From positions 1 through 60,687 of the IMG/VR virus record IMGVR_UViG_3300044535_001493: 60,687 nucleotides of DNA. One strand, given 5' to 3'. The stretch is from a virus. A model generated the notes under the pieces. That model did not search any database. It worked only from the letters and a program-made list of their open reading frames with translations, and was not told the origin of the DNA. Position numbers and translations under genes: made by a program. Below are positions 686 through 30,431 of the stretch, piece by piece (positions within the stretch are counted from its first letter, which is position 1; the number at the start of each line of letters is the position of its first letter).

Positions 686-1279
686 ATGAAAATTTTGTTA
701 TCAATTGTCTTAATTTTTATTAGTGTATTTGCATTTACACAATGTAATGGTGTGCAATCTTTTACATTAACACCCCCACCAGTAGGAAACACATATAATG
801 CCGGTCAAGTTGTAACTATGTGTTACACAATGAACGGTTATACTCAAGCAGGTGTTAACTGGATTGAAGGTTTTGATTTAAACTTAGGTCCTGGTTGGGC
901 TTCAGTTAACCCACAATCAGCACCAGCAAACTGTGGTGGTAATGCAACTGGTGGACAATGGGTCTGGAAGACTTCTGTAACCTCAACAACAACACCAATT
1001 GTAACAGTTGGTCCTGGTTATTTCTTTGATTTAACCGTTGATGGAAATCCGGGAAATGATTTTGGTGATTCCGGTAATTGTACTTGGACGTTCTGTGTTA
1101 CTTTAACCGTTGCAAACGTATGTACACCTCAAAACTTATTAATTCAAGTCACACCGGGCTCTGATGGCCTATGGGGAAGCTATACTAGCTCTTCTTGTGA
1201 CTTGGCAACACCATTTAATGTATTTAACGGAACAATAAACGTAGTCCCGATAGTTTTGGGACCAATAAACCATAATTAA
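686..1279 (+). CDS. Exported adhesin-like protein with signal peptide, 197 aa
   Basis: Residues 1-19 form a clear Sec signal peptide (MKILLSIVLIFISVFAFTQ), the Q-ending type common in flavobacteria. The mature part is rich in Thr, Gly, Asn, Val and aromatic residues with scattered Cys, like a beta-sandwich surface protein. It ends in PINHN, and the next gene ends in PIQHN, which suggests a shared C-terminal signal or remnant. It heads a three-gene operon (7 nt gap to the next gene). The organisation resembles a flavobacterial surface or gliding-type adhesin split into several ORFs. Whether it sits on the virion or the infected cell is unknown. Confidence 0.75.
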   Translation: MKILLSIVLIFISVFAFTQCNGVQSFTLTPPPVGNTYNAGQVVTMCYTMNGYTQAGVNWIEGFDLNLGPGWASVNPQSAPANCGGNATGGQWVWKTSVTSTTTPIVTVGPGYFFDLTVDGNPGNDFGDSGNCTWTFCVTLTVANVCTPQNLLIQVTPGSDGLWGSYTSSSCDLATPFNVFNGTINVVPIVLGPINHN

Positions 1280-1286
1280 ATAAAAA

Positions 1287-1868
1287 ATGAAAAGAATTTT
1301 ACTAACTTTAATGACGATGATTTCAACAATATCATTATCTCAATTAACAACAACAAATCCAGATACGGTTTGTTATCAATCAACAGCTCTTTCCACCTAT
1401 ACTATACCATCTGTTGGTTCTGGAACATATACTTGGACCGTTACAGCGCCTGGTGTCATAACTGCGGGTCAAGGAACTAACTCAATTTCAGTGAACTGGT
1501 CTGCGGCAGCACCAGGATTAATTACAAATGGTGTTTCTGTAACCTATTCTTCACCTCCACCGGCTAACTGTCCTGCAACACCAGTTAATTTAAATGTATT
1601 AATATACCAAGTTATACCTACAATCACAGCTTTAGGTCCATTTTGTGAGTCAGATCCTTGTGTAAACCTAGTTGGTGCGCCAGTTGGTGGTACTTGGTCT
1701 GGAACTGGAGTGGTTGGTAACCAGTTTTGTCCTGATAACGTAACAAATGGGACTAATGCAACCTCAACTGTTACATATACAGTAGGTTCTGCTGGTTGTA
1801 CATTCACAACATCTGTTGTTGTACCGGTATATGGAACACCAACATTATCACCTATACAACATAATTAA
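1287..1868 (+). CDS. Exported Ig/PKD-like surface protein, 193 aa
   Basis: An N-terminal signal peptide of about 18 residues (MKRILLTLMTMISTISLS) is followed by two beta-sandwich-like stretches. The segment GTYTWTVTAPG and the later GGTWSGTGVVG and STVTYTV are typical of PKD/SprB-type repeats in Bacteroidota adhesins. The protein ends PIQHN. Its TAA overlaps the next ATG by one base, so the genes are co-translated. It is probably exported with its neighbours. The family call is by motif feel only. Confidence 0.75.
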   Translation: MKRILLTLMTMISTISLSQLTTTNPDTVCYQSTALSTYTIPSVGSGTYTWTVTAPGVITAGQGTNSISVNWSAAAPGLITNGVSVTYSSPPPANCPATPVNLNVLIYQVIPTITALGPFCESDPCVNLVGAPVGGTWSGTGVVGNQFCPDNVTNGTNATSTVTYTVGSAGCTFTTSVVVPVYGTPTLSPIQHN

Positions 1869-2434
1869 TGAAATTAATACTATTTGTATATTTTTTCTGT
1901 CTTTCCCTAGTCACATATAGTCAACATATGTTTGAATTGTGTGATGGGGAGAGTAAAACAGTCACATACACCTCAAATTACGGTGGTGATGGTGTAAATA
2001 CGTGGACAGTTAACGGAATTGTGTATGCAATGGAAGACTTAACATACACATTTACACAAACAGGAACATATAATATAGTATTAAGGCGTGAAAATGTCAT
2101 TTGTTATGTTGAGGAATCAATACAAGTTGTTGTTAATGACTGTCCTGGGGTTATTTACTGGGTGCCAAACTGTTTTACACCGGATGGAAACGAAAATAAC
2201 CAACTATATGGGCCAATTATGGTTAATGGATATGATATAAATGGGTTTGAGTTCCTTATTTTTAACCGTTGGGGTAACATAGTATGGGAATCTAATGACC
2301 CAAATGGACGTTGGGATGGTACTTTTGATAATAAAATGTGTACAGAAGGTGTTTATATCTGGAAACTAACCTTTAATGTCTTTGGAAATGATGATAAAGT
2401 CACAAATCACGGACATTTAACGTTAATTAGGTAA
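1868..2434 (+). CDS. Exported protein with T9SS type-B (gliding-motility-associated) C-terminal domain, 188 aa
   Basis: A signal peptide (residues 1-18) is followed by a short beta-rich region. From about residue 94 to the end lies a near-complete type-B sorting domain: WVPNCFTPDGNENN, then FNRWGNIVWES, GRWDGTF, GVYIWKLTF and a final HLTLIR. These match the known pattern (PNaFTPNgDg.N, iFnRWG..vfe, WdG...g.pvp.GvY.y). In Bacteroidota this domain directs proteins through the type IX secretion system to the cell surface. It is the last gene of the operon, so the whole set is probably surface-directed. A virus carrying such a domain is unusual. Confidence 0.85.
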   Translation: MKLILFVYFFCLSLVTYSQHMFELCDGESKTVTYTSNYGGDGVNTWTVNGIVYAMEDLTYTFTQTGTYNIVLRRENVICYVEESIQVVVNDCPGVIYWVPNCFTPDGNENNQLYGPIMVNGYDINGFEFLIFNRWGNIVWESNDPNGRWDGTFDNKMCTEGVYIWKLTFNVFGNDDKVTNHGHLTLIR

Positions 2435-3575: not shown

Positions 3576-4127
3576 TTATTGTCCTTTAACTAAGTTAATA
3601 CATTGTTTAAGATATTCTTTAGCTCTTGGTGACGGTGTATATTCATCATCCTTTGTTTGTAGTGCTAAAACCCTTTCAATATCTTTAACTAATTCTGTTC
3701 CGTGTTCATTTTCTTTATATAACTCAACAATCTTATCCATCGCTTTATGGCAGTCACCAGTTGTTTCGTCGTGATAGTTTTTATTTCTAAATCTATTAAG
3801 ATTGTGCATCATATCATAAGCTAAATGTGCACCACCATCTTTAACGTCCTTAAAAAGTCTTATATTATTTAGAATACCTAAAGTATCAACCATTGAATTA
3901 ACACCCATTCTTCTTTTTGAAACACCAGGTGAATATTTTACAAATTCATCAGCTTGACCAACCATTTCATCAAGTGGAATCATATTGTCTTCCATACATC
4001 TAGGTTTTGGTGGTTCTTTTTTCTTATTTTCTTTTTGTTCACCACCCATTTGAACATCGCCATTTTCTTTAATTACCTTTTCTATTAAAGCAACAAGCTC
4101 ACTTTCTGTTAATTTTATTTTTTTCAT
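3576..4127 (-). CDS. Unknown protein with LTES-type N-terminal peptide, 183 aa
   Basis: The N-terminus MKKIKLTESELVALIEKVIKE is one of four near-identical leaders in this window (others at 25848, 29667 and 29897). It is followed by a Lys/Pro-rich linker and a helical domain (residues 45-180). This arrangement resembles T4 internal head proteins, whose N-terminal targeting peptide is removed by the prohead protease after a Glu. I infer a head-packaged protein. The helical body is not recognised. Confidence 0.75.
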   Translation of the reverse strand: MKKIKLTESELVALIEKVIKENGDVQMGGEQKENKKKEPPKPRCMEDNMIPLDEMVGQADEFVKYSPGVSKRRMGVNSMVDTLGILNNIRLFKDVKDGGAHLAYDMMHNLNRFRNKNYHDETTGDCHKAMDKIVELYKENEHGTELVKDIERVLALQTKDDEYTPSPRAKEYLKQCINLVKGQ

Positions 4128-4818: not shown

Positions 4819-6054
4819 ATGACACCTTACGAAAGATTCATTAACCGTAGATATGTAAAAATATTCAATCACTTTTTAAAAGAAGTTGTTGAACCGGCGG
4901 TTTATGACAAGAACCATAAAAAAATTAAATTCAAACTTTATGGTATTTCAGTACGACCAAAAAGTTCTGTTTATGAAACAATACCTAAAGAAGAATTATT
5001 AGATTCACAAGCCACTGTAAGTTTTTTTATTGATTCTGAACCAAGTAACCGTCTAGAAAACATTAATTTTATTGAAGATTTAATCTTTTTAAAAGGTAGA
5101 AGTTTTTTACAATTACAGGATGGTGACTGGTTGGGTTATAAATCAGAAAAGTTTCGTCTTGGACTTAATTTTAATAAAAGACCACTCTATCCTTTAGATT
5201 ATGCTGCCGAAGATAGTTTAACTGAAGAAGTTGAACCATCTGCAAAAGCTGTTAAAAACATTTGTGATTCAAAAAAATTCTGTGAGGCACAAGGAAAAAT
5301 TACATTTGGACAATTAAGAGAAATTGTTACAAACGCAAAAGCAAAAAGATTATATCAACATATTGGTGAAGGAGGATATAAAGCAACACTAAGACTACTT
5401 CCTTGGTTTTTCCCACAATTAGCAATTGCCGGTTTTACTGGTTCAATACTAAGAGCATTTAATAAAATATTTAGACCGGGACTTGAAGAAACAACAGGAT
5501 ATAAAACCTGGTGGGGTAAAACTATTATGACAATATTCAACCTTGTTGAGGGTGAATTAGGTATTGGTGATCCATTATCAAAAATATTTTTTATATCAGA
5601 TGGTCTTATGACCATGCTTGATGATAAACTAAAAGTTAAGTTTGCTAGATATATTGCTGAAGTTGCAAGTGAAAAACCAGACGATGAGGAAGTTCCAGAA
5701 TACTTTGTTGAAAATGAATTAAGAAAATATCTTAATGAAAAGTTTTTATTGGACCCACCATTAAGTCCAAAAGAAATCAAAAAAGATGATGATTTACCAT
5801 TTGAAGAAGTAAAAGAAAACGGAATCAAAACTAGATTGTTTAAAGAAAATATTAATAATGGTGAATTAAAATGGCATTTTGATAAACAAGATAGAAAAGT
5901 TAAGGTTGTAAAATCTAATAACTGGATGTTACAGATGGATAATGATATCCCAAAACCATTAAAGGAAGGGCAAACAATATTTATACCAAAAGGTGTTTAT
6001 CATAGAGTAATAAAAGGTCAAGGTGATTTAATTGTTAAAATTAAAGAATTGTAA
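4819..6054 (+). CDS. Unknown protein with C-terminal cupin-like segment, 411 aa
   Basis: It starts 4 nt after the previous stop. The N-terminal 100 residues are beta-rich, and residues 140-270 are helical with a hydrophobic stretch (LPWFFPQLAIAGFTGSILRAF). The last 60 residues (GQTIFIPKGVYHRVIKGQGD) look like the end of a cupin barrel. The final codon overlaps the start of the L,D-transpeptidase-like gene. Operon position suggests a virion or lysis-related role, but I do not recognise the family. Confidence 0.7.
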   Translation: MTPYERFINRRYVKIFNHFLKEVVEPAVYDKNHKKIKFKLYGISVRPKSSVYETIPKEELLDSQATVSFFIDSEPSNRLENINFIEDLIFLKGRSFLQLQDGDWLGYKSEKFRLGLNFNKRPLYPLDYAAEDSLTEEVEPSAKAVKNICDSKKFCEAQGKITFGQLREIVTNAKAKRLYQHIGEGGYKATLRLLPWFFPQLAIAGFTGSILRAFNKIFRPGLEETTGYKTWWGKTIMTIFNLVEGELGIGDPLSKIFFISDGLMTMLDDKLKVKFARYIAEVASEKPDDEEVPEYFVENELRKYLNEKFLLDPPLSPKEIKKDDDLPFEEVKENGIKTRLFKENINNGELKWHFDKQDRKVKVVKSNNWMLQMDNDIPKPLKEGQTIFIPKGVYHRVIKGQGDLIVKIKEL

Positions 6055-6935
6055 TGTACAGAAAAAGATTTATAATAACAGAAAATGAAAAAAAACATAT
6101 AAGAAATTTATATGGGTTAATAACTGAACAGGGAACTTTTACTGGGTGTACCTTTTCTGAAAAAAGTAATGATTTACCAGATTATAAACAAATTTTAGAA
6201 CAATATAACAACGACCATAACGCAGTCGCTACCGCGGTAACTGAAATGGCAAAAAAATTCAAAGAAAAAGTAAAAGACTTACAAGATAGACCAGCATGTC
6301 AAGCTGGTTTAAATAAAATAAGACCATTTTATAGAGATAAAAAATTTATAATAATAGATCAACTAAAAAATACAGCATACTTTTTTGATTTAAATGGTAA
6401 TGGTGTTGGCACTTGGGTTATAACAGGTAGGGACACACCAAACGAAAAATGGTCTGAGTTTGCAGGTTTATCATACGATGAAAGAGTTAAAAAAGTTGGC
6501 ACTGATTTAGCAATAACACAACCAGGTGCTAGTTTTACCGCTCCAGGTAGATATCAAACAGATAAAAAAGGTGTATATGACCCACACTATAGTGGAAAAG
6601 GTGAAAATTTATTTAACCTTTATAAAACACAAGATGGTAAAGAAGTAACACAAGCATTACACGGCGTAAAGCCAACAAAGGAAAGACTTGACGCACTTAA
6701 AAAAGTAAGTAATATACCGTTATCTGCAGAGTCAAACGTAAATTTGGATCTATCTTCTGGTTGTATAAATTTTCCAGAAGAATTTATAAACACACACAAA
6801 GAAAAATTTACAGATGCTTATGTGTTTGTAATAAAAAGTGACCAGAGTAATTACTATGTATTCAACCCAAAACCAATTATTGATAATCCAGGTAAATGTT
6901 ATTCAAATGAAGTTTTGGATATACAAATCACTTAA
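6054..6935 (+). CDS. L,D-transpeptidase (YkuD)-like protein with N-terminal targeting-like peptide, 293 aa
   Basis: The catalytic signature of the YkuD fold is visible. There is an APGRY strand, a His in ALHGV (about residue 202), and the nucleophile region SSGCINF (Cys about 236-237) with the expected S-x-G-C-I-N-hydrophobic order. L,D-transpeptidases use this Cys to form or exchange peptidoglycan crosslinks. The N-terminus (FIITENEKKHIRNLYGLITEQ) resembles the leaders of the other putative head proteins, so the enzyme may be packaged and injected. Two Cys in the leader-proximal part and one near the C-terminus could form disulfides. The start overlaps the upstream stop by one base. Confidence 0.8.
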   Translation: MYRKRFIITENEKKHIRNLYGLITEQGTFTGCTFSEKSNDLPDYKQILEQYNNDHNAVATAVTEMAKKFKEKVKDLQDRPACQAGLNKIRPFYRDKKFIIIDQLKNTAYFFDLNGNGVGTWVITGRDTPNEKWSEFAGLSYDERVKKVGTDLAITQPGASFTAPGRYQTDKKGVYDPHYSGKGENLFNLYKTQDGKEVTQALHGVKPTKERLDALKKVSNIPLSAESNVNLDLSSGCINFPEEFINTHKEKFTDAYVFVIKSDQSNYYVFNPKPIIDNPGKCYSNEVLDIQIT

Positions 6936-7890
6936 TAACATATTTTACATTACATAAACACTCAATTGTATTAGGATTTCCTCCAGCATAAGAAATTGCA
7001 CTTTGTAGTGATTCCTCAATATCATTTAATTTATCAAAAATAGAAACGTCATTATATGGTACTAATTTTCTAATACCCTCAATTCTATTTGTCTTACCAG
7101 ACTGTGAAGATGATGCACTACCCCAAAATTCTTTGTACCAATGTCCATCAATTACGTTTTTAAGTTTGTCTCCTGGTGAATCTATGTATCCAGATAACAT
7201 ACCACCAACCATAACCATAGACGCTCCTAAAACAAGACTTTTTGTAATATCACAATGTTCTTTTATTGAGCCGTCAGCAATAATTGGTTTTTTTGCTACC
7301 TTAACACACTTCTTAATCATTGACGCCTGCCAACCACGATTACCAAAACCAGTTGAGTGATATGTAGTGCAAGCGGATCCCCCACCAATACCACATTTAA
7401 CAGCATCACAACCCCAAGATTCCAAATCAGTAACGGCTTCTGGTGTACAGACATTCCCACCAATTAAAAATACATCTGGCATTTTATTTTTGATGTATTT
7501 AACCATTTTTTTCATTTTAATAGAATGACCGTGTGCAATATCTACAGTGATAAAGTGTGGTATTAAATCTTCCGATAAAAGTTCATCAATTAGTTTATAC
7601 GAATCGTCATTTACACCAACAGATATTGAAGAAATTAAATTATGTTCTTTCATATTTCTCACAAAAGAAACCTCATCAATATTAAATCTGTGTAATATAT
7701 AAAAATATTCATCTTTTGCTAATTTTTTTGCTAAATTAATATCTATAATACTTTCCATATTTGCAGGAACAATAGGTAATTTAAATCTATAACCGCCAAA
7801 TACACAAGTTGTATCGCAATCACTTCTACTCTCAACACGACTAAAGTTTGGTAGTAATGTTATATTATCAAAATCAAATATTTTTTTCAT
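6928..7890 (-). CDS. guaC: GMP reductase
   Basis: This is an IMPDH/GMPR-family TIM barrel. Visible are NITLLPN near the N-terminus, PIVPANMESI, DIAHGH, the substrate loop FLIGGNVCTPEAV, the catalytic-Cys loop GIGGGSACTT (Cys about 174), IADGSI and the flap region FWGSASSSQSGK. It lacks the CBS insertion of IMP dehydrogenases, and its length (320 aa) fits GMP reductase. The enzyme converts GMP to IMP with NADPH and would rebalance purine pools during replication. It overlaps the upstream thioesterase gene by 17 nt, so the two form an operon. Confidence 0.9.
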   Translation of the reverse strand: MKKIFDFDNITLLPNFSRVESRSDCDTTCVFGGYRFKLPIVPANMESIIDINLAKKLAKDEYFYILHRFNIDEVSFVRNMKEHNLISSISVGVNDDSYKLIDELLSEDLIPHFITVDIAHGHSIKMKKMVKYIKNKMPDVFLIGGNVCTPEAVTDLESWGCDAVKCGIGGGSACTTYHSTGFGNRGWQASMIKKCVKVAKKPIIADGSIKEHCDITKSLVLGASMVMVGGMLSGYIDSPGDKLKNVIDGHWYKEFWGSASSSQSGKTNRIEGIRKLVPYNDVSIFDKLNDIEESLQSAISYAGGNPNTIECLCNVKYVIK

Positions 7891-8296
7891 CCTCGTTATT
7901 TTTTTCTATTAATTTTGTGATTCTATTTTTTCCTTTTTCGCCAATTGGAATTGGGTTACCTTCTTCATCAATATGAACAAATTTTATATTCGTTTTTAAA
8001 ACTATAACTTGTTTTCCAGTATATACATTATGTGCTCTAGCCTCCATATATAATGTAACTGATGTGTGACCAACATATGCTGGTTGTCCATAAATTTTAA
8101 GCAATTGACTCTCCCTTGCCGGTTTTTCAAAGTTACACTTATCAATAGATACTGTTACCATTCTTGGTGTATCGCACAACTGCATAGCAAACCCAGCGGC
8201 AGAGGCATCAATCCAGGCTAGTAATTTACCACCGAATAAATTACCGTGGAATCCTAGGTCTGATTTTTTAATTGGATGTGAATTTAATAGTTCCAT
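7874..8296 (-). CDS. Hotdog-fold acyl-CoA thioesterase (YciA-like)
   Basis: The product is 140 aa with the hotdog signature GNLFGGKLLAWIDASAAG (residues about 19-36), then VTVSIDKCNFEKPA and GHTSVTLYMEA. This is the order in cytosolic acyl-CoA thioesterases, which release CoA from acyl-CoA. It sits directly upstream of and overlaps guaC. A thioesterase is rare in phage, and its role here (lipid or CoA metabolism, or another thioester) cannot be read from the sequence. Confidence 0.85.
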   Translation of the reverse strand: MELLNSHPIKKSDLGFHGNLFGGKLLAWIDASAAGFAMQLCDTPRMVTVSIDKCNFEKPARESQLLKIYGQPAYVGHTSVTLYMEARAHNVYTGKQVIVLKTNIKFVHIDEEGNPIPIGEKGKNRITKLIEKNNEDEKNI

Positions 8297-8958: not shown

Positions 8959-9359
8959 GAGTTCCACCAGAATATACAGCTAAAGTAGAAAAAATAAAAA
9001 ATATTATATTATCAAGATCTGGTTTAATATCAGAATATGGTCTTAATAATATTAAAATGGAGGTTGAAGAATTTTACAAATTTGATAGTGGTGATGTTTC
9101 TGAAATTGTATTTAGTCTTAGATTAAATGATGTTGTATGTGATGAATGTGATTTTGAACCACAATTAATTAGTGAAACTATTTTAGAAATAAAAAATAAA
9201 TTAGAAAACGCTTGTAGTTTTTATATTTCACCAAAATTGGAGTTAAAAAGTAATCAAAGTTCTCTTAGGGGTGTATTATTTTATGATTGTAAAATTTGGA
9301 GGAATGAATTTCAAGAACTAACATTTGGAATTTTTTATGATGTGGGAGAAGAGTATTAA
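8955..9359 (+). CDS. Unknown protein, 134 aa
   Basis: It is coupled to the metalloprotease by an ATGA overlap. The product is mixed alpha/beta with a CDECDFEP motif near residue 57 and an aromatic end. No family is recognised. It converges on the minus-strand membrane-protein gene, with stops overlapping by 4 nt. Confidence 0.65.
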   Translation: MRVPPEYTAKVEKIKNIILSRSGLISEYGLNNIKMEVEEFYKFDSGDVSEIVFSLRLNDVVCDECDFEPQLISETILEIKNKLENACSFYISPKLELKSNQSSLRGVLFYDCKIWRNEFQELTFGIFYDVGEEY

Positions 9360-9973
9360 GATTTAAACCTTTTTACTATTTCCATCATCAATCTTTTTGC
9401 AAAATTACCACCAAAACTAACAACTAAAAAAGCAAGACTACGCTCAACAATTTCTTTCACATCAACAGAACTTCCAGATTGCGCCGCTTCATATAATTCA
9501 GGTAATATTGGAATTAAAAATGTGTAAGCTAACATATTTGATATTCTAGAAGTTGGTATTGCCAAACTTTCAACGAAGGACAAAAAAACATTTTTTAATT
9601 TATCTGCAACCTTTAAAGCGCTATCAAATTCAAAAACAAGTTCTTTTTCTTTAATTTTTTCTAATACGGTACCTAACATTTTTTTATTTGAATGGTAGTA
9701 AGTTAAAATTATACCGGTAGATATTAACGCTAAATCAGTAGAAGTCATTTCTGGAAATTTACCTTCAATAAAATCAGAAACTGGCATTACAAAACCTGCA
9801 ATAGTTACACCCCAAGTTGTAAGAAAGTCTAAATCTAAACCAACTTGATTTTTTGTTTCTTCACTAACTCTTTTAAAGAAAGATTTTAAATCTTTTAATT
9901 TTTCTTTTAGGTTATTTTCTCTTTCTTCTAATAAAATTTTTTTATATTGAGATTCTGATATTATTATCTTCAT
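9356..9973 (-). CDS. Membrane protein with leader-type N-terminus, 205 aa
   Basis: The N-terminus MKIIISESQYKKILLEE is a variant of the shared leader (Glu-rich, amphipathic). A helical region follows, then hydrophobic helices at about residues 52-68, 78-95 and 140-160, and an amphipathic C-terminus. If the leader targets it to the prohead, it would be a membrane-active ejected protein. A TATTTATT box lies upstream on the minus strand. Confidence 0.65.
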   Translation of the reverse strand: MKIIISESQYKKILLEERENNLKEKLKDLKSFFKRVSEETKNQVGLDLDFLTTWGVTIAGFVMPVSDFIEGKFPEMTSTDLALISTGIILTYYHSNKKMLGTVLEKIKEKELVFEFDSALKVADKLKNVFLSFVESLAIPTSRISNMLAYTFLIPILPELYEAAQSGSSVDVKEIVERSLAFLVVSFGGNFAKRLMMEIVKRFKS

Positions 9974-13092: not shown

Positions 13093-14049
13093 ATGAAAGA
13101 AAAAGATTTAATATTAGAAAGGATTTTATTGAATATGAAATATGATTCAAGAAAAACTTTGTCTGAAAATAAACAAATATTGTTAGAAGAAAATCAAACA
13201 TACGCTGGTTGGACTGAGACTTATGACTTACTTGGAAAACCATTAAGATTCAAAGGAACGGTGATTTCAACGGTAAACCAAGAATTAAAAACTTTTACGA
13301 CAGGTTTAGGAACAATAAGAGGGTCTAACTACCAAAATTTAAGTGGTACATTATTAAGGGCGTTAGAAACTAATTGTTATCAATGGAGTGAAATGGGTGA
13401 AAATGAAAAAACAGCGATGAAAGACGCTTTTAATTTTATTAAAACATTGAATGTAAACGCACCTTATAATATCGCATTTGAGAATGTTAATTATAGATTG
13501 TTTTTTTATTGTCGAAAATACGTTGGTACTGTGACAACAAGATATAGTAATGGAAAACAAGTTAGGGTTGCAAAACCAGCGGCACTACAAACTTGTGATG
13601 ATTGGGTTCCAGATGAATGTTCAAGGAACACAATATCTTCTTTAGGTTATTATAGTCAAGTTAAAGGTAAATTTTTAGAGACATTCGACACTCATTTAGC
13701 AAAACCAACTGAACCAAAAAAAGATTTAAGTGGATTAAAAAAATACAATGATGAGAGAAAGAAAAAATGTATAGATGGTGGTAACGAATGGGACGAAAAA
13801 ACAAAAAAATGTAAAGGTGTGACAAATTTGGCCGATTTTGAAATAACGGCACCAAAAAAATCATCAACAGATAAAACCCAAGGAACTAATAAACCTGATT
13901 TAAGTAGTGGTGTAACAGTTGGGTATTCTGACAAATCAGAAATAAAAAATCCAAAAGACAACAAAGGTAAATCATCAGATGTGACTTGGGGTGGTGGTAG
14001 TGGTGATTCTAAATCATATAGATTATATTTATCAGGAGGTGGTCAGTAA
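13093..14049 (+). CDS. Putative virion protein, paralogue of previous gene, 318 aa
   Basis: Same architecture as the gene at 12089. The leader ends in NKQILLEENQ, a plausible cleavage region for a Glu-specific prohead protease. Then come a beta-rich domain, the Cys module CIDGGNEWDEKTKKC and a Gly/Ser tail ending YRLYLSGGGQ. The stop overlaps the following ATG by one base. Function is unknown. Confidence 0.75.
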   Translation: MKEKDLILERILLNMKYDSRKTLSENKQILLEENQTYAGWTETYDLLGKPLRFKGTVISTVNQELKTFTTGLGTIRGSNYQNLSGTLLRALETNCYQWSEMGENEKTAMKDAFNFIKTLNVNAPYNIAFENVNYRLFFYCRKYVGTVTTRYSNGKQVRVAKPAALQTCDDWVPDECSRNTISSLGYYSQVKGKFLETFDTHLAKPTEPKKDLSGLKKYNDERKKKCIDGGNEWDEKTKKCKGVTNLADFEITAPKKSSTDKTQGTNKPDLSSGVTVGYSDKSEIKNPKDNKGKSSDVTWGGGSGDSKSYRLYLSGGGQ

Positions 14050-15548
14050 TGAAAGAAAAAGATTTAATATTAGAAATTACTAGAATGCGTGAAATAATGG
14101 GAATAAACCCATTGAAGAGCTCAACAATTAAAACTATTAGTGAAGATTTTAAAACAACTAATGGTATTCTTTTATTTGAATCTAATGGTGGTGGTAAAGG
14201 TGAATTAGGTACACTAATTTTAAAAGGTTTAGGTTTTGGTGATGAAGTTGCCAGTTCTGTTGGAAAACAAGTTGCTGATGAATGGGAAGGTGCTGCAAAA
14301 CAGTTTGCAGATAGTCTAAAAAAAGAAGGTTTAGATGATATTGGAAAAATACAACAAAAAATTAGACTTTTTAGGCCTAACCTTGAAATGTCAGACGAAT
14401 TAATGAAAAATTATGTTGATGCTTATTTTAAAAATAACCCAGAAGTTGCAAAAGATTTAATAAAAAAATTACCAGATGTTGTAAACGAAATAAATAAAAA
14501 ATTTAATACAAGTAGTTTTGATAGTTTAGTACCAACTAGTATTAAAGAAACGTTGGAAATACTTCGTTCATTAAGGATTGATGATTTTACAGATGATTTA
14601 ATTAAAGATTATGATATTTTAATAAATGAACTAATGAATAAAAATGTTTTGGGTGGGGTATATAACACAAACCAGAATGTAAAAAATTACATGGATGGGC
14701 TATTTAGTCATTTGACAACAATACAAAAGTCAAAAAAAATAGGAGATTCAACACCTAAAATTCAAACCCAAACTAAAACAACAGAACCTGAAATTAAAAA
14801 CGACTCAAATAATAAACCAAATCAACAAGAATTTCTACCAAATTTGATTCCATATAAGGAAGATTCAACAGGTACTAAAGTATTTTTAAATGTTGTTGAA
14901 CCTGAGGCGTACTCAAAGTATTTGGAATTAACAAAAAAACCTAGGTCAAGTTGGAATGAAGAAGATTCAAAACTATATACTGACATTGTTAGATGGGAAA
15001 GTGATTTTTCTGTTGACTTTAGTAAATATAAAATAAAACAAGATCGTGATACTAATTTAAAGATAAATGCTAATATTAAAGAATTACCACAAACCCAATT
15101 TCACATAGGCGGAACGTCCATTGATAGTGTTAGATCTCCAGGTTGGAGACCATTAGAAGGGTCAGATTCAAAAATAGTTAGAGATGATCATAGTGCATTT
15201 AATAGTAACGCACCTGGTGCTTATCAATATTTTAGTTTTACAACAAGAGAAGATGGTGAAAACATAATATATTCATTTCATAGAAAAGATATTTTTGATG
15301 CTGCAGGTAGACAAGGTAATTTTATTGTTGCTGTTAGCTATCCTAAAAATTCTAACGTTAAGTTAGACGATGTTAAACAAATTTTAGTTGATAAATCTAA
15401 TGAAATTTACCAACAGTGGAAATCTGCGTATGATAAAAAAGATGGTGGTGCAAGCATTGGGTCGAAAACAACACCACAAACCTCAACACCTAATGGGAAT
15501 GTCAATAATAATGTTGTAACATCTGAAGTTCCAATAATAAAAAGGTAG
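14049..15548 (+). CDS. Putative virion/internal protein with GLDDIGKIQQ domain, 499 aa
   Basis: The leader KEKDLILEITRMREIMGIN precedes a helical domain (residues about 55-190) shared with the genes at 15592 and 19566. Its markers are GLDDIGKIQQK, YFKNNPEVAKDLIKKLPD and a Gly-rich SNGGGKGE start. A Thr/Gln linker (240-260) follows, then a unique C-terminal domain with FHIGGTSIDSVRSPGWRPL. A stretch of 78 nt is identical to part of 19566. Probably packaged with its paralogues; the biochemical role is unknown. Confidence 0.75.
   Translation: MKEKDLILEITRMREIMGINPLKSSTIKTISEDFKTTNGILLFESNGGGKGELGTLILKGLGFGDEVASSVGKQVADEWEGAAKQFADSLKKEGLDDIGKIQQKIRLFRPNLEMSDELMKNYVDAYFKNNPEVAKDLIKKLPDVVNEINKKFNTSSFDSLVPTSIKETLEILRSLRIDDFTDDLIKDYDILINELMNKNVLGGVYNTNQNVKNYMDGLFSHLTTIQKSKKIGDSTPKIQTQTKTTEPEIKNDSNNKPNQQEFLPNLIPYKEDSTGTKVFLNVVEPEAYSKYLELTKKPRSSWNEEDSKLYTDIVRWESDFSVDFSKYKIKQDRDTNLKINANIKELPQTQFHIGGTSIDSVRSPGWRPLEGSDSKIVRDDHSAFNSNAPGAYQYFSFTTREDGENIIYSFHRKDIFDAAGRQGNFIVAVSYPKNSNVKLDDVKQILVDKSNEIYQQWKSAYDKKDGGASIGSKTTPQTSTPNGNVNNNVVTSEVPIIKR
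14424..14501 (+). repeat. 78-nt perfect repeat, copy 1 (copy 2 at 19938)
   Basis: This segment is identical base for base to 19938-20015, including third codon positions. It encodes the KNNPEVAKDLIKKLPD region. Surrounding sequence is only moderately similar, which points to recent gene conversion or recombination between paralogues. Confidence 0.8.
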
Positions 15549-15591: not shown

Positions 15592-17244
15592 ATGAATTCA
15601 GATGAAATATATAGAATGAAACAATTAATGGGTTTAAGTACACCAAAATCTTTTGTTTCTGAAAGCTACAAAAAAGAAATTAAAAGTAGAATAATTATTG
15701 AAGCGCTTACTGGTGGTAAAGATGAATTATATAAATGGATAGCAAAAGCTAGTGGATTATCTGACGAAACAGCAGAAGCTTTCAGTAAAGAAGCTAGCAC
15801 CTTTATGAAAGGTTCAGACGAATTTGCACAAGTTTTAGCTAGGGAAGGCTTAGATGATGTTGGTAAAATACAACAAAAACTTTCAAATGCTGGTTATGAT
15901 ATTACAAACTTAGACAATGCAATTACTATGTACTTTAAACAAAATCCAAATGTTGCAAAAGAAGTACTAAAGTCTATGCCGGAATTTACGGACAATATTA
16001 TAAAAAATATGTCATTAGAAACAATATTAAGTAAACAACCAGATTTAGTAGATGTTTTAAAATTTGTTAGTGATTCAGAATTCAAACTAGAAACTGAAGA
16101 TATGGTTGATGATTATCAAAAATTAATGACTGATATTCAAAAACTAGCAGACGCAAGTGGTGGAAATCAAAGCATACATAACGTTTTAAATTTAATGGAT
16201 ATAAAACTTGATGTGTATGATGCAACAAAAAATTTAGGAACAGGGAGCTCAACTAAACAAACACCAACCGTACAACCAAAACAAGTACCAACAACACCAA
16301 AACAAGCACCAACAACAACACCAACAAGTAAAACTCAAGACTATGATTTTTTAAACGACACTGAAAAAAACAATATAGATATCTTACTTTCAACTGAAGT
16401 AAGTTCAAGAAATGTTGATTACCTTAGAGATGAGTTAAACGCTGAAATTACAAAATTAAAAAATACAAAAGAAAGTGATTATCCTGGGGATAAAACAAAA
16501 ATTGACGAATTAATAAATATATTAAGACAAAAAGAAAAAGAAGCTATTGATTTAAAAATGGAAGAATCTGGCGCTAATTACATTACTAATCCCAGTAATA
16601 CAATAATAAAAGGTTCAAAAACTGATGGTAGTGTTGAAGAAAAGGTAAAACTACCAGACTGGATGTGGGGTTGGTGGAGAGGTGACGACCCAGATTTTTA
16701 TATGGGTGCAAAAGTAAATGATGAATTAAAAGAAAAAGTTGCAAAATTAAATACTTATACCTTTAAACCTGAAGATGTTAAAGTAACAAATAAAGGTGTT
16801 GATAGTGATGGTCGAGACATTTTTGAATTACTATTACCTTCTGGGGATAAAATTTTAGTATATAGGTCAACAGGGACTGGAGCTTCAGCATTAAAGGGTT
16901 ATGGTGATTGGCAAGTTATAAATGGATTTGGTAGACACCCAAAAGATAGTGATTTCTTTTGGGTTGTTAAGTCAGCAGATTCAACACAATACACTAAAAA
17001 CACAGATCTTAGTGAATATTTAACAAATATGGCAAATTATTTAAAGAATAATAATGGCACACCAGAAACTTTATTAGGAAAACCAAGTGTTATAAATCAA
17101 ACACCAAAAACAAATAACCAGGATTTTGAAAAAATGCAAATAATTGGTCAACAAAATAAACCAACACAAGTTACACAACAGACAGTAACACCACCTAAAC
17201 AACCAGAAAGCCCTTATAGTAGATATGGTGCTGGATCAAATTAA
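15592..17244 (+). CDS. Putative virion/internal protein with GLDDVGKIQQ domain, 550 aa
   Basis: The leader NSDEIYRMKQLMGLSTPK ends near FVSES. The shared helical domain (residues 40-170; GLDDVGKIQQKL, YFKQNPNVAKEVLKSMP) comes next, then a Pro/Thr/Gln linker (about 215-245). The C-terminal half (DWMWGWWRGDDPDFYMGAKV, FGRHPKDSDFFWVVK) resembles none of the other genes here. A disordered tail ends SPYSRYGAGSN. It belongs to the same cluster and probably the same particle compartment as 14049 and 19566. Confidence 0.75.
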   Translation: MNSDEIYRMKQLMGLSTPKSFVSESYKKEIKSRIIIEALTGGKDELYKWIAKASGLSDETAEAFSKEASTFMKGSDEFAQVLAREGLDDVGKIQQKLSNAGYDITNLDNAITMYFKQNPNVAKEVLKSMPEFTDNIIKNMSLETILSKQPDLVDVLKFVSDSEFKLETEDMVDDYQKLMTDIQKLADASGGNQSIHNVLNLMDIKLDVYDATKNLGTGSSTKQTPTVQPKQVPTTPKQAPTTTPTSKTQDYDFLNDTEKNNIDILLSTEVSSRNVDYLRDELNAEITKLKNTKESDYPGDKTKIDELINILRQKEKEAIDLKMEESGANYITNPSNTIIKGSKTDGSVEEKVKLPDWMWGWWRGDDPDFYMGAKVNDELKEKVAKLNTYTFKPEDVKVTNKGVDSDGRDIFELLLPSGDKILVYRSTGTGASALKGYGDWQVINGFGRHPKDSDFFWVVKSADSTQYTKNTDLSEYLTNMANYLKNNNGTPETLLGKPSVINQTPKTNNQDFEKMQIIGQQNKPTQVTQQTVTPPKQPESPYSRYGAGSN

Positions 17245-17251
17245 TTTTGAT

Positions 17252-19522
17252 ATGGAAAAACAAATATTATTAGAATTACAAAGAATGAAACAAATAATGG
17301 GTTATGATAGAAATAACCCAATTGATGTTATATTTGAACAAGACCCAAAATTAGATAGATATGTTGACGATGTTTCCGGTACATCAGAAATACTAGATAA
17401 AGTTTCAGATGAATCTAAACCAACTATGTTTGGAAAATCAACAGTAGATAGGTCAACGTTTTTTATTGGTAAAGACACACAATATCCATTCTTCCAATAT
17501 TTTGATAATGATTTATACGATAAATTAGAAGTTAGTGAAGGAACACAAGTTGTTTTATTTGGAAAGGGGGAAACGGCAAAAAACTTTTTACCAAATGTTA
17601 AAGTTGGAACCGTAATAGATGATTTAGGTAAAGAACATACAAATCAAGAATATCTAGAATTAGAAATGAGTGTTTTAGAAGGCCTAAATAAAGATGAAAA
17701 TCCGTTTTCATTAAATAATGTTAAAACTTCAACAGGAAAACAAGTTACAAAATTAGTTAAAGCTTGTTTACCAAGTTCAGATATTGCGGCAGAAGGTAAA
17801 AATTTTTGGGGAATACACGAAGGTACTGTTGCCAGATTTACAACAAATGTAAGAAGTGAAGGTGGAATGTTTAAAAGTGTTGAAAGTAAAAATGTCACTT
17901 TTTCTGTTGCAATGGAACCAAAACAAACTACAGCAAGTGATGATGGGACGCAACAACTTGGACTTGAAGCTGCGGTAAGATGTAGAGGTGGTGATAATGG
18001 ATGGGGTTGGGTTTTAACTCCACCACCAATATTTTTTGACGTTACAACAGGACAACCATATAACCCAAAAGATCCGCAAAATATGGATGTTAGATCAGAT
18101 TGGGAAGTTTGGTATGACCATTACGGTATGTGGCTTGAAATTGGAATTGGTGTTGCCGCAAGTTTTCTAGGTGCTGGACTAGCCACTTTGATTCTAAGAG
18201 TTGGTAGAGCCGCTGGTGCTGCTGGTGCTTTATGGGGGGCGTTGTCGTCAACATACGCCGGTGGTACAACAACAGTATTATCTGTTTTTATGCAAGTATT
18301 AACAGAAGGTGTTATGATGGCACCAATAATAAAATGGCAATTTGAAAACGATAAAGATCCGGATGCAATGTTAAGTACAATTTTTTGTTTAATACCATTT
18401 GTAAGTGAAACAAAAGCGGTATCAAAAATTATTGGTGGTAGATATTCCGCAGAAGCCGCTAATGGTGTTGCAGAAAAGATAACAAGATTTGGTCTTACAT
18501 CGATATTTAATGCTGGAGAAAATAATCCTGAAGCAGCAAAAAAATTTATTGATTTTTTAAATTCTTTAACTGCAACTGAATTAGCGTTATTTAATAGAGG
18601 TATGGCAATTGTTAGTAAACAAGAAAGTATGGATGCAATGCTTGCTGGTGTTACAGAACTAATACAAACAGGTGGTAAATTTGGAAAAGAAATGGCTGAA
18701 GCAAAAACAGAAGCCGCTAAAAAAACTGTTTTAGGTAAATTAGGTGGTATTGTTGGTCCAAAAACAGCCGAACTTGTTGGTAAAGCCTCAACAGGAACTT
18801 GGGTCGGTAAAAACCTTAACCCACTTACAGCGAGATGGGTTATACCTTTCCAGTTCGCTAGAATGGGTGCCCCAATAGCAGTATTTGCAACAGCCTTCAA
18901 AGCAGCATATCAAGAATTAACAGAAGAAGAAAAAGTTGTTTTTGATAATAACTATCAAAAATCTTTAAAACTTGATGAAGAGTATTTTATCGAATTAAAT
19001 AAAATTGACCCTTATTTAATGGAAAGTTGTTTTAATAAACAAATTGAAGTGATTACTAGTGATAAGTCAAAACTTAATGAAGTTATGAAAACTAGTGGTT
19101 ATTTACAAACTGATGAAGGTAGACAATTAAAAGATGAAGTTTTAGTTGAAGCTTTAACAGAAAGGCAAAACCAAATGAAAGCCACAGTAGCACAATCAAC
19201 TGTTGATTTAGGACAATCATTGAAAATGAGAGCAACAATTAACAGTGCTGCCAGAATACTTTTTGAAAAATTGAAATTTACGGAAATAAATTTTATCTCA
19301 TCAAAAGATATTAATAATATTACTGGGACTTGTTTTTACGAAAACAATAGTTATAACTTTAACATTAGAAGAGAAAATGAAAAAGCAGTATATTATGTTG
19401 GTGAAAAGAAAATTACAGATGATGAAATTAAAAATGAAAAATGGGATCCTAGTGGTGCTAAAACAATTCCAAAGGAACATTTTTTTAGAAAAAAAGATAT
19501 AATAAGAAATATATATAGATAA
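17252..19522 (+). CDS. Putative ejected membrane-active virion protein, 756 aa
   Basis: I chose the ATG at 17252 (leader MEKQILLELQRMKQIMGY) because the frame opening at 17225 overlaps the upstream gene. Residues about 290-370 hold long Gly/Ala-rich hydrophobic helices (IGIGVAASFLGAGLATLI, AAGAAGALWGAL) of the kind that insert into membranes. More amphipathic helices follow (residues 480-580), then a charged C-terminus. With a prohead-type leader this fits an ejection protein that helps DNA cross the envelope, a role known for internal proteins of other phages. That role is inference. Confidence 0.7.
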   Translation: MEKQILLELQRMKQIMGYDRNNPIDVIFEQDPKLDRYVDDVSGTSEILDKVSDESKPTMFGKSTVDRSTFFIGKDTQYPFFQYFDNDLYDKLEVSEGTQVVLFGKGETAKNFLPNVKVGTVIDDLGKEHTNQEYLELEMSVLEGLNKDENPFSLNNVKTSTGKQVTKLVKACLPSSDIAAEGKNFWGIHEGTVARFTTNVRSEGGMFKSVESKNVTFSVAMEPKQTTASDDGTQQLGLEAAVRCRGGDNGWGWVLTPPPIFFDVTTGQPYNPKDPQNMDVRSDWEVWYDHYGMWLEIGIGVAASFLGAGLATLILRVGRAAGAAGALWGALSSTYAGGTTTVLSVFMQVLTEGVMMAPIIKWQFENDKDPDAMLSTIFCLIPFVSETKAVSKIIGGRYSAEAANGVAEKITRFGLTSIFNAGENNPEAAKKFIDFLNSLTATELALFNRGMAIVSKQESMDAMLAGVTELIQTGGKFGKEMAEAKTEAAKKTVLGKLGGIVGPKTAELVGKASTGTWVGKNLNPLTARWVIPFQFARMGAPIAVFATAFKAAYQELTEEEKVVFDNNYQKSLKLDEEYFIELNKIDPYLMESCFNKQIEVITSDKSKLNEVMKTSGYLQTDEGRQLKDEVLVEALTERQNQMKATVAQSTVDLGQSLKMRATINSAARILFEKLKFTEINFISSKDINNITGTCFYENNSYNFNIRRENEKAVYYVGEKKITDDEIKNEKWDPSGAKTIPKEHFFRKKDIIRNIYR

Positions 19523-25765: not shown

Positions 25766-25879
25766 ATGGAAGACATATTTGAACAAATACATAATGAATT
25801 TATAAATTCCGAAGATTATTTTTCATATCTTCAAGATATTTATTCTTATGAAGAAAAAGATAAGACTGACGGAATCTGA
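25766..25879 (+). CDS. Small acidic ORF, 37 aa
   Basis: The ATG at 25766 follows the Arg tRNA by 13 nt. It encodes 37 residues rich in Glu, Asp and Tyr, and its 3' end overlaps the start of the next gene by 32 nt. The gap to the next gene would otherwise be empty. Function is unknown. Confidence 0.45.
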   Translation: MEDIFEQIHNEFINSEDYFSYLQDIYSYEEKDKTDGI

Positions 25880-26285
25880 ATTAGTAAGACTAATTAAAAA
25901 GATTATTAAAGAGGAAAAGTATTCCGAAGAAGATATCAAATACACACACCCAATGACAGGTGAAGCCTGTAAAATCAAAGTTGCCAGAAATAAACTTACA
26001 AGTATGGAATATAACCAATATGGGTCAATTCTTGTTTGTGTTGATGAAGAATATGGTGATGATAGAATTGAAGCTGAACTACCAGTAAATGGAAGTACGC
26101 CAGAAGAAGTTGGTGATTTTATATGTGAAAATATTGAAAGAACTTTTGAACTTTTAGACGATATGTTAACTTACGAAGAAGAAGAACCAATATCAGAAGA
26201 AGTTTATAGTCAAAGGTGGGATATAATGGACCAACCAATTGTTTGTTCAGACAAACCAAAAAAGAAAAAAAGTTGGGAATATTAA
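25848..26285 (+). CDS. Unknown protein with LTES-type leader, 145 aa
   Basis: The leader KKKIRLTESELVRLIKKIIKE is almost the same as at 3576 on the opposite strand, though the bodies are unrelated. The rest is acidic alpha/beta (ILVCVDEEYGDDRIEAELPV) with a basic KPKKKKSWEY end. I infer a head-packaged protein released by cleavage after the KE of the leader. Confidence 0.75.
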   Translation: MKKKIRLTESELVRLIKKIIKEEKYSEEDIKYTHPMTGEACKIKVARNKLTSMEYNQYGSILVCVDEEYGDDRIEAELPVNGSTPEEVGDFICENIERTFELLDDMLTYEEEEPISEEVYSQRWDIMDQPIVCSDKPKKKKSWEY

Positions 26286-27521: not shown

Positions 27522-27593
27522 GCTCTGTAAGCATTGATGGCGATGCGCTTGACTTGTAATCAAGAAAAATCAGTTCGAATCTGGTACGGAGCT
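27522..27593 (+). tRNA. tRNA-Thr(UGU)
   Basis: Acceptor GCTCTGT/ACGGAGC, anticodon arm CTTGA-CTTGTAA-TCAAG (TGT) and T arm ATCAG-TTCGAAT-CTGGT. CCA is not encoded. Confidence 0.9.
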
Positions 27594-27629
27594 CAAAAGA
27601 AAAAGTTCTTTGACATATTGGCCTTATAA

Positions 27630-27700
27630 TGTTCCCTCGTCTAATGGCAGGACACGCGGTTTTGGTCCGTGGAATCGAGGTTCGAGTCCTTGGGGAACAA
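27630..27700 (+). tRNA. tRNA-Gln(UUG)
   Basis: Acceptor TGTTCCC/GGGAACA pairs perfectly. The loop TTTTGGT gives anticodon TTG; T arm CGAGG-TTCGAGT-CCTTG. The weak first pair (U-A) is typical of tRNA-Gln. Confidence 0.9.
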
Positions 27701-27709
27701 CAATAAATT

Positions 27710-27795
27710 GGAAGTCTAATTTAGCCGGCGCTAAACCTAGTCTTGAAAACTAGTGGTACTGAAACACGTATGGGGATCGACACCTCAGGCTTCCT
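27710..27795 (+). tRNA. tRNA-Ser(UGA)
   Basis: Acceptor GGAAGTC/GGCTTCC, anticodon arm CTAGT-CTTGAAA-ACTAG (TGA), a long class II variable arm, and T arm TGGGG-ATCGACA-CCTCA. The T loop starts ATCG instead of TTCG. Confidence 0.85.
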
Positions 27796-27806
27796 CCAAA
27801 AAATAA

Positions 27807-27877
27807 CGAGTGTGTGGTGTAATGGTTGCACAGGATGTTTGGGACATTCGGGAGACGTTCGATTCGTACACATTCGA
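27807..27877 (+). tRNA. tRNA-Pro(UGG)
   Basis: Acceptor CGAGTGT/ACATTCG; anticodon arm GGATG-TTTGGGA-CATTC (TGG). The T stem is weak (AGACG/CGTAC, outer two pairs mismatched). Confidence 0.8.
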
Positions 27878-27936
27878 CTAACAAATAAACAAATAAAAAC
27901 AAGTGTTATGGAAAGTGACAAGTATGACAAACAAAA

Positions 27937-28009
27937 CCCCTCGTAGCTTAATCGGGAAAGCACCATACTTTTAATATGGGGAGAGTCGGATCGTAACCGG
28001 CCGGGATCA
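27937..28009 (+). tRNA. tRNA-Lys(UUU) with mismatched acceptor stem
   Basis: The D arm, anticodon arm CCATA-CTTTTAA-TATGG (TTT) and T arm GTCGG-ATCGTAA-CCGGC are sound. The acceptor is CCCCTCG against CGGGATC: pairs 4-7 form, but positions 1-3 (C-C, C-U, C-A) do not. It may be nonfunctional or repaired by end editing. Confidence 0.75.
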
Positions 28010-28016
28010 CAAAAAT

Positions 28017-28046
28017 TTTGGTAATTAAAAAAAAGTATTATCTTTG
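28017..28046 (+). promoter_or_regulatory. Host-type promoter for the tRNA-Tyr unit
   Basis: TTTG (28017-28020) and TATCTTTG (28039-28046) are separated by 18 nt. The tRNA begins 9 nt after the -7 box. Confidence 0.7.
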
Positions 28047-28055
28047 TAAAAATAA

Positions 28056-28136
28056 GGAAGTGTTGAGCATTTGGCTGGCTCGCTTGACTGTAGATCAAGT
28101 CCGAAAGGCGTGTAGGTTCGACCCCTACCACTTCCA
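28056..28136 (+). tRNA. tRNA-Tyr(GUA)
   Basis: Acceptor GGAAGTG/CACTTCC, anticodon arm CTTGA-CTGTAGA-TCAAG (GTA), a class II variable arm and T arm GTAGG-TTCGACC-CCTAC. All helices are intact. Confidence 0.92.
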
Positions 28137-28144
28137 CAACAAAA

Positions 28145-28217
28145 GGACAAGTAGCTCAATTGGTAGAGCAATCGGCTGTTAACCGATAGGTTGTAGGATC
28201 GTACCCTTCCTTGTCCG
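28145..28217 (+). tRNA. tRNA-Asn(GUU)
   Basis: Acceptor GGACAAG/CTTGTCC, anticodon arm ATCGG-CTGTTAA-CCGAT (GTT). The T loop is ATCGTAC rather than TTCGANN. Confidence 0.9.
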
Positions 28218-28223
28218 CAATAA

Positions 28224-28296
28224 GTTCACGTAGCTCAATTGGTAGAGCGCCGATCTGATACGTCGGAGGTAATGGGATCGTAACCCGTCGTGAACA
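28224..28296 (+). tRNA. tRNA-Ile(GAU)
   Basis: Acceptor GTTCACG/CGTGAAC, anticodon arm CCGAT-CTGATAC-GTCGG (GAT), T arm ATGGG-ATCGTAA-CCCGT. Confidence 0.9.
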
Positions 28297-28300
28297 CTAC

Positions 28301-28384
28301 GGAAGATAAACCTTGATGGAGATAGGGTCCGCCTGCTAAGTGAGATGTACCTTCGGGTATTTGGTTCGATTCCAATATCTTCCT
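28301..28384 (+). tRNA. tRNA-Ser(GCU)
   Basis: Acceptor GGAAGAT/ATCTTCC, loop CTGCTAA (GCT), and variable arm with a TTC-capped hairpin. The anticodon stem has one mismatch. Confidence 0.85.
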
Positions 28385-28390
28385 CAACTT

Positions 28391-28460
28391 GCCGATAGAA
28401 AAGGTTTTCGGTCCGGGCTCATATCCTGGATGTCATTGGGTTCGATACCCTTTATCGGTA
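28391..28460 (+). tRNA. tRNA with CAU anticodon (elongator Met or Ile2)
   Basis: Acceptor GCCGATA/TATCGGT, anticodon arm CCGGG-CTCATAT-CCTGG (CAT). It is not the initiator, which is at 31241. The outer T-stem pairs are weak. Confidence 0.85.
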
Positions 28461-28474
28461 CCGAGAATTATATG

Positions 28475-28547
28475 GTGTATGTAGCTCAGTTGGTAGAGTG
28501 CTGGATTGTGATTCCAGAGGTCGTGGGATCGTGACCCATCATACACA
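28475..28547 (+). tRNA. tRNA-His(GUG)
   Basis: Acceptor GTGTATG/CATACAC, anticodon arm CTGGA-TTGTGAT-TCCAG (GTG). A G at 28474 could serve as the extra G(-1). Confidence 0.9.
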
Positions 28548-28548
28548 C

Positions 28549-28713
28549 AAAAGATGATAAAAGACGTAGAACAACGGGCACGGAGAGGTGTTCGCAAGGG
28601 TACACACTAAGGATAGGTATTCAATCTTAATTGTATTGATGTAACAACCCAACTCTCTAATGGTGTGTGAAGTATAATTACGGGATTCCTGATAAAGTTG
28701 TTCATCATCTTTT
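28549..28713 (+). ncRNA. Candidate structured RNA closed by a long terminal stem
   Basis: The 5' AAAAGATGAT pairs perfectly with the 3' ATCATCTTTT, and just inside, GAACAAC pairs with GTTGTTC. The roughly 120 nt between contain more complementary segments (TACACAC with GTGTGTG, GGAGAG with CTCTC) and no tRNA T arm or ORF. It lies between tRNA-His and tRNA-Arg, so it is probably processed from the same precursor. Family unknown. Confidence 0.55.
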
Positions 28714-28717
28714 ATTT

Positions 28718-28789
28718 ACCCCTTTCGTATAATGGAAGTACAACACTCTTCTAAGGTGTCAGGTCGGAGTTCGAGTCTCTGAGGGGGTA
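28718..28789 (+). tRNA. tRNA-Arg(UCU), normal anticodon loop
   Basis: Acceptor ACCCCTT/AGGGGGT, anticodon arm ACACT-CTTCTAA-GGTGT (TCT), T arm CGGAG-TTCGAGT-CTCTG. This is the uninterrupted counterpart of the gene at 25649. Confidence 0.9.
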
Positions 28790-28828
28790 CGAATCCGATG
28801 TCGGTCCCGAGCTAGGTCGGGCAAATTT

Positions 28829-28899
28829 ACGTGGTACAGACAGGGCGTCGGGCAGGTCTCCAAAACCTCGCCGGGTAGGTTCGATCCCTACACCACGTG
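28829..28899 (+). tRNA. tRNA-Trp(CCA)
   Basis: Acceptor ACGTGGT/ACCACGT, loop CTCCAAA (CCA), T arm GTAGG-TTCGATC-CCTAC. A small hairpin CCCGA/TCGGG (28806-28821) lies just upstream and may aid processing. Confidence 0.88.
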
Positions 28900-28908
28900 C
28901 TAAAATAA

Positions 28909-28981
28909 GGACAGGTAGCTCAGTTGGTAGAGCTCAGGATTGAAGATCCTGGAGTCGGGGGTTCGACACCCTCCCTGTCCA
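28909..28981 (+). tRNA. tRNA-Phe(GAA)
   Basis: Acceptor GGACAGG/CCTGTCC, anticodon arm AGGAT-TTGAAGA-ATCCT (GAA), T arm GGGGG-TTCGACA-CCCTC. Confidence 0.92.
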
Positions 28982-29003
28982 CAAACAATTAAAATTAACT
29001 AAA

Positions 29004-29459: not shown

Positions 29460-29466
29460 TATATTA

Positions 29467-29537
29467 GCTCAGGTGGCCGAGGGGTTAGGCACCGGTCTGC
29501 AAAACCGAGTACGGGGGTTCAAATCCCTCCTTGAGCT
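29467..29537 (+). tRNA. tRNA-Cys(GCA)
   Basis: Acceptor GCTCAGG/CTTGAGC with the expected U73 discriminator, loop CTGCAAA (GCA) and T arm GGGGG-TTCAAAT-CCCTC. Confidence 0.9.
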
Positions 29538-29546
29538 CAACAAAAT

Positions 29547-29620
29547 GCCCCTATGGCGGAATAGGTATACGCGTGTGACTTAGGATCACAATCTTGCAGG
29601 TTCGAGTCCTGCTGGGGGTA
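29547..29620 (+). tRNA. tRNA-Leu(UAG) lacking a long variable arm
   Basis: Acceptor GCCCCTA/TGGGGGT, a Leu-type D arm (TGGCGGAATAGG), anticodon arm TGTGA-CTTAGGA-TCACA (TAG) and T arm GCAGG-TTCGAGT-CCTGC. Only 5 nt (ATCTT) separate anticodon and T arms, whereas bacterial tRNA-Leu normally has a class II arm of more than 10 nt. Confidence 0.88.
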
Positions 29621-29639
29621 CAACTTTTTTAATTATCTA

Positions 29640-29649: not shown

Positions 29650-29666
29650 AATAAAATATAAAAATT

Positions 29667-30421: not shown

Positions 30422-30431
30422 TCTTTGAAGA

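Follow-up and report, generated by a model that had tools for sequence, protein, structure and literature searches.

A putative T9SS type-B adhesin encoded as three exported pieces, two of them with a common C-terminal tail, in a tailed phage

Three adjacent genes of a tailed phage are best explained as one adhesin split at domain borders. The last piece carries a type-B sorting domain of the type IX secretion system (T9SS), and the first two end exactly in the same short tail, L-[GS]-P-I-x-H-N. The genes are found at the left end of the window, meaning the whole linear contig of 60,687 bases filed in IMG/VR as IMGVR_UViG_3300044535_001493. They are co-directional and arranged head to tail, the ATG of ORF3 overlapping the stop codon of ORF2 in TAATG. 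A preliminary description of this DNA had reported a three-ORF operon at 686-2434, the third protein ending in a gliding-motility C-terminal domain, and both points are borne out. It had missed the apparent splitting of one adhesin, the conserved PIxHN tail shared by ORF1 and ORF2 and the exchangeable nature of the head. The features of the cassette are the following.

686..1279, plus strand: ORF1, exchangeable "head" subunit (P1), 197 aa, homologue of the N-terminal region of large CHU_C proteins from bacteria
about 686-739, plus strand: predicted signal peptide of ORF1, mature N-terminus Gln19
1256..1276, plus strand: tail LGPINHN of ORF1, stop codon immediately after
1287..1868, plus strand: ORF2, connector subunit (P2), 193 aa, PKD_6 domain
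about 1287-1340, plus strand: predicted signal peptide of ORF2, mature N-terminus Gln19
1845..1865, plus strand: tail LSPIQHN, C-terminal end of ORF2
1868..2434, plus strand: ORF3, base subunit (P3), 188 aa, type-B sorting domain
about 1868-1921, plus strand: predicted signal peptide of ORF3, followed by Gln19
about 1922-2149, plus strand: PKD-like N-terminal domain of ORF3, related to the N-terminal domain of ORF2
2162..2431, plus strand: type-B T9SS sorting domain of ORF3 (TIGR04131 / CHU_C), both scores above the curated cut-offs

The sorting domain runs to the final residue of ORF3. It scores 36.9 bits against TIGR04131 (cut-off 35; model positions 3-85 of 85) and 45.1 bits against CHU_C, PF13585 (cut-off 27). 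The search with the TIGR04131-type model, which had been proposed as a check, is hence positive for ORF3, and gave no match in 14 control genomes. ORF1 and ORF2 match neither TIGR04131 nor TIGR04183, i.e. they have no type-A or type-B sorting domain of their own. ORF2 matches PKD_6 (34.4 bits, cut-off 25), and its N-terminal PKD-like domain is related to that of ORF3 (hhalign E 2.1e-5, probability 77%). ORF1 had zero matches in Pfam, NCBIfam and PHROGs. Searches of the PDB by sequence yielded no more than a weak hit on All3314 (7b5h) with the P2 profile, and nothing useful for ORF1 or ORF3. All three ORFs are predicted, by reading of the sequence, to start with a Bacteroidetes-style signal peptide (Lys, a hydrophobic stretch, then Ser-Gln). 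The three ORFs are not a product of chance: 38 viral loci hold a relative of ORF3, 57 a relative of ORF1 and at least 80 a relative of ORF2. Wrongly split ORFs or frameshifts are excluded by the separate signal peptide of every piece and by the persistence of the split across dozens of contigs.

Export of ORF3 would proceed through the T9SS of the host. Type-B sorting domains require a PorP/SprF-like shuttle, and orphan cargo can be served by a distant one (PMC12618676). No PorP/SprF-like gene (TIGR03519) was found in nine phage records, i.e. this contig and eight related ones, and a host shuttle has thus to be assumed. Independent export of ORF1 and ORF2 is conceivable.

The contig is a genuine tailed phage, since it encodes three phage hallmark proteins.

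48273-50045: large terminase
50415-52199: portal
56486-58357: major head protein

The virus looks like a large one, of putative Bacteroidota-type hosts; phages in the size class of its huge-phage relatives have been predicted to replicate in Bacteroidetes (PMC7162821). Fifteen tRNA genes for 15 different amino acids are clustered at 27522-31826 (plus strand), and the antisense ORFs drawn across them are spurious. Host-like enzymes are encoded on the minus strand at 6928-7890 (IMP dehydrogenase/GMP reductase family), 7874-8296 (4HBT thioesterase) and 39909-41969 (ClpA/ClpB-like AAA+ protein). At least 10 otherwise dissimilar ORFs have in common short N-terminal motifs, either LTESELxxLIxxVIxE or LExxRMxxIMG, which are frequent in related contigs as well, and are perhaps capsid-targeting propeptides cleaved by a prohead protease.

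ORFs with the shared N-terminal motifs: 3576-4127 (minus strand), 6054-6935, 9356-9973 (minus strand), 13093-14049, 14049-15548
ORFs with the shared N-terminal motifs, continued: 17225-19522, 25848-26285, 29667-29918, 29824-30240, 32903-34228 (minus strand)

The relationship of the three pieces to one parent protein emerges from fused relatives. In metagenome-assembled genomes of Bacteroidota the ORF1 domain is found inside single long proteins, which measure, when complete, 760-1714 aa, and have a CHU_C-like end. The ORF2 profile matches 76 of 99 Bacteroidia genomes; nearly all listed cases are located within large ORFs, and nearly all matches end short of the tail positions. The presence of ORF1 and ORF2 domains in single bacterial proteins, the complete ones ending in CHU_C, supports the derivation of the cassette proteins from the Bacteroidota adhesin repertoire. 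A fused form is found also in a huge phage (LR745206, 634,780 bases), in which a 732-aa ORF combines a SprB-like repeat, slightly below cut-off, with PKD_6 and CHU_C. Its residues 402-547 correspond to ORF2 (41% identity) and residues 556-732 to ORF3 (39%). At the junction a short linker replaces the tail, stop codon and signal peptide of the split forms, and the order ORF1-ORF2-ORF3 is the order of the domains in the fused protein. Two further phage contigs, G002 and G005, host the split cassette and, at another site, a fused version, again with a short linker. Three split/fused changes are needed on the P3 tree, where a single split clade is not clearly rejected (p-AU 0.051).

The cassette is constant in organization, and variable in its first gene. 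A tail-bearing ORF precedes the connector in all 57 cases with upstream room, and a base follows it in 58 of 62; in the remaining four the base was found by allowing longer ORF starts or by tblastn. In several phages ORF1 is replaced by another exported protein of 262-632 aa, which still has the tail at its end. These replacement heads may be glycine-rich, may contain SprB repeats, or may include only a divergent ORF1-like domain. Unrelated tail-bearing heads are found at L110, L121 and L134, and SprB repeats (PF13573) in those of L110 and L134; none were reported in the proteins of the contig described here. Close relatives may differ in the head only: connectors 95% identical are preceded by heads of 200 and 322 aa sharing 30% identity. 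That heads are exchanged while the base stays constant hints at a binding role in need of variation. A cassette in which ORF3 alone is a T9SS surface protein, and its two neighbours are unconnected periplasmic or secreted proteins of other function that happen to be co-transcribed, would fit the finding of a recognised sorting domain in ORF3 only. Such an arrangement is very improbable, given the strict co-occurrence and order of the genes, the shared tail and the fusion of ORF2 and ORF3 regions into one chain in relatives.

Other T9SS-related genes were observed in these phages. In three phage contigs, proteins of 816-1729 aa with a type-A T9SS sorting domain are encoded directly upstream of the head gene.

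G002:C1:60480-60707 (L222): type-A domain beside the head gene
G003:C1:200337-200567 (L221): type-A domain beside the head gene
G005:C1:25838-26068 (L220): type-A domain beside the head gene

Additional type-A and type-B domains are present in the 634- and 642-kb phages. The window itself encodes a second exported protein at 59232-60686 (plus strand, open at the contig end), which features fn3 and GBD_T9SS_assoc domains. A complete relative of 858 aa (L257, 5001-7577) has an additional GEVED domain and an end resembling a type-A T9SS domain, though below the TIGR04183 cut-off.

Among proteins from viral contigs, all 67 distinct members of the ORF1 class keep the tail, and so do all 67 distinct members of the ORF2 class, class membership having been set by profile HMMs independently of the tail. 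Its position is exact, the last residue being Asn, rarely Asp. The codons differ synonymously (CAT/CAC 115/42, AAT/AAC 111/39), and those for Pro and Ile vary too, which points to selection on the protein; a cause at the DNA level, such as a promoter or other site with CATAATTAATG, is excluded by the same variation of Pro, Ile, His and Asn codons. In 75 of 77 pairs both tails have the same final letters, HN or HD, an agreement of little weight because nearly all pairs are N/N. The viral loci examined contain 1,427 other ORFs that reach 100 aa or more, and only 15 have a tail-like end. Thirteen of the 15 belong to this cassette as head genes and one is seemingly spurious. The last is an unrelated fourth exported protein of 197 aa, encoded directly after the base gene (L186, 1159-1752); its last residues are NNVIFHN, which may be a variant of the tail carried by a novel type of subunit. 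When 2.9 million viral contigs were scanned for a single DNA form of the tail, 37 stretches matched; two (L176 and L196) are chance occurrences, and the cassette is present in the others examined. In 295 Bacteroidia genomes the reversed control pattern matched more often than a broader tail pattern, which had 2 matches, neither of them at the ORF end of a protein with a signal peptide. The tail is consequently not a common bacterial C-terminus, as it is at chance level in these genomes. Nor was it convincingly found as an internal sequence in the long homologues of the parent adhesin that were examined.

Surface display is the natural reading of the cassette, and on balance we consider it probable that the three genes encode a T9SS-displayed adhesin made of separately exported subunits. 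ORF1 would be the exchangeable head, ORF2 the conserved connector and ORF3 the base provided with the type-B sorting domain. Each subunit would be exported separately by Sec, and the tail L[GS]PIxHN would stand in for the lost peptide bond, most likely through non-covalent docking: the tail of the head on the PKD-like domain at the N-terminus of the connector, and the tail of the connector on that of the base. The sorting domain of ORF3 would then take the assembly out through the host T9SS, and a host PorP/SprF-like shuttle would hold it at the cell surface. The infected cell would thereby show an interchangeable binding head, whose role might be cell-cell adhesion, attachment, receptor masking or exclusion. 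Sequence shows the signal peptides, the sorting domain, the tail, the fusions and the exchange of heads; export through the T9SS, docking through the tail, surface location and function are inferred. There is about an even chance that the C-terminal L[GS]PIxHN acts as an assembly or sorting signal that is both new and specific to phages, which loads heads free of T9SS domains on a T9SS base and allows the display to be swapped by changing one gene.

The tail might act differently. It could be a sorting signal in its own right, read by a T9SS component, by the shuttle or by ORF3, with no ordered fibre being formed. That one tail is shared by two different proteins, and by heads unrelated to each other, is in line with this, and the VIFHN end of the exported protein beside the L186 cassette would fit a common reader. 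We regard it as unlikely, because the tail is not above chance in Bacteroidia genomes, and would serve the host machinery for nothing else; moreover, the tail marks precisely those borders where the fused form has a peptide bond. Alternatively, the tail could be a substrate for covalent joining, by a transpeptidase or by an isopeptide bond via the terminal His-Asn, as may be imagined from the interchange of split and fused forms in evolution and from the strict conservation of the terminal residues. Yet a mature N-terminal Gln is expected in Bacteroidetes to become pyroglutamate (PMC5837995), which blocks the N-terminus and favours a non-covalent joint, and no ligase gene was noticed in an unsystematic look beside the cassette. 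A covalent link is accordingly quite doubtful.

The three ORFs of L081 were submitted to AlphaFold2 as their natural in-frame read-through, with stop codons rendered as Gly for the computation only. In the resulting model (pLDDT 80, pTM 0.47) the last residues of both tails are assigned to strand. In a close relative of ORF2 predicted alone, which is well folded without a partner (pLDDT 91), the tail is coil. The change from coil in the lone connector to strand in the joined model is a hint of tail docking, in which pairing partners are not visible; one tail might here be paired with the other. Among solved structures, the three-part model is matched best by fragments of the Aureispira protein GhpA (9fls, E 1.4e-9). 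Identity to GhpA is 13-17%, and titin and other generic Ig chains score nearly as high, so that the resemblance is one of fold only.

The preliminary description had also considered that a stolen adhesin could be carried on the virion. The adhesin part of this proposal is sustained, the cassette being apparently an adhesin-derived type-B cargo of a phage; the virion part is not. A virion fibre or decoration might be imagined, as Ig-like chains are frequent in phage tails and capsids, and phage tail proteins are found, at low similarity, among the Foldseek matches. All three pieces have signal peptides, however, and would leave the cytoplasm, where virions are assembled; besides, the viral proteins closest in fold carry annotations as gliding motility-associated C-terminal or PKD-like proteins rather than structural ones. 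We hold a place on the virion to be extremely improbable.

Among known systems, donor-strand pili of the chaperone-usher and type V kinds also consist of Ig-like subunits that are exported one by one and linked by a terminal segment. They resemble the cassette only if the docking model holds, and differ because no usher, chaperone or lipoprotein processing is seen in the cassette. The grappling hook protein GhpA of Aureispira (9fls, 9flw, 9flv, 9fly) is a Bacteroidota surface protein made of Ig-like domain chains, but is about 5,000 aa long and consists of one chain. Genes for T9SS cargo have been described in Cryophage, where they vary between phage variants (PMC7468147). The likeness is limited to phage products with a T9SS sorting domain: those of Cryophage are of type A and include endoglucanase, glycoside hydrolase and PA14 proteins, and neither a split cassette nor a tail was described (PMC7468147). 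Two proteins of uncultured Caudovirales phages are apparently the same connector (A0A6J5NML0, PKD-like, 185 aa, 62% identity) and the same base (A0A6J5NJX2, Gliding motility-associated, C-terminal domain, 187 aa, 39% identity), and bear in UniProt automatic names only. No paper on phage type-B T9SS cargo, on the split cassette or on the tail was found in the open-access literature.

Dedicated phage adhesins that re-dress the host surface have rarely been shown, and the putative surface-adhesin cassette seems to be conserved among many large phages of Bacteroidota. If the docking model is true, a seven-residue tail that connects separately exported pieces would represent a novel route to T9SS surface structures assembled from interchangeable parts, and the question is raised whether proteins free of sorting domains can ride the T9SS by binding a domain-bearing partner. 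The closest comparison is with T9SS type-B cargo such as SprB of Flavobacterium johnsoniae, which is served by the shuttle SprF. Signal peptide, PKD/Ig-like modules and type-B C-terminal domain are shared, as are, in the heads of some relatives, SprB-repeat modules, and by domain content the cassette is a putative small SprB-like type-B adhesin. It differs from SprB and SprF in that no PorP/SprF-like gene accompanies it in the phage records searched, and from SprB-type cargo in general in being phage-encoded, in having a very small base, and in being made of three exported pieces, two of them marked by the PIxHN tail.
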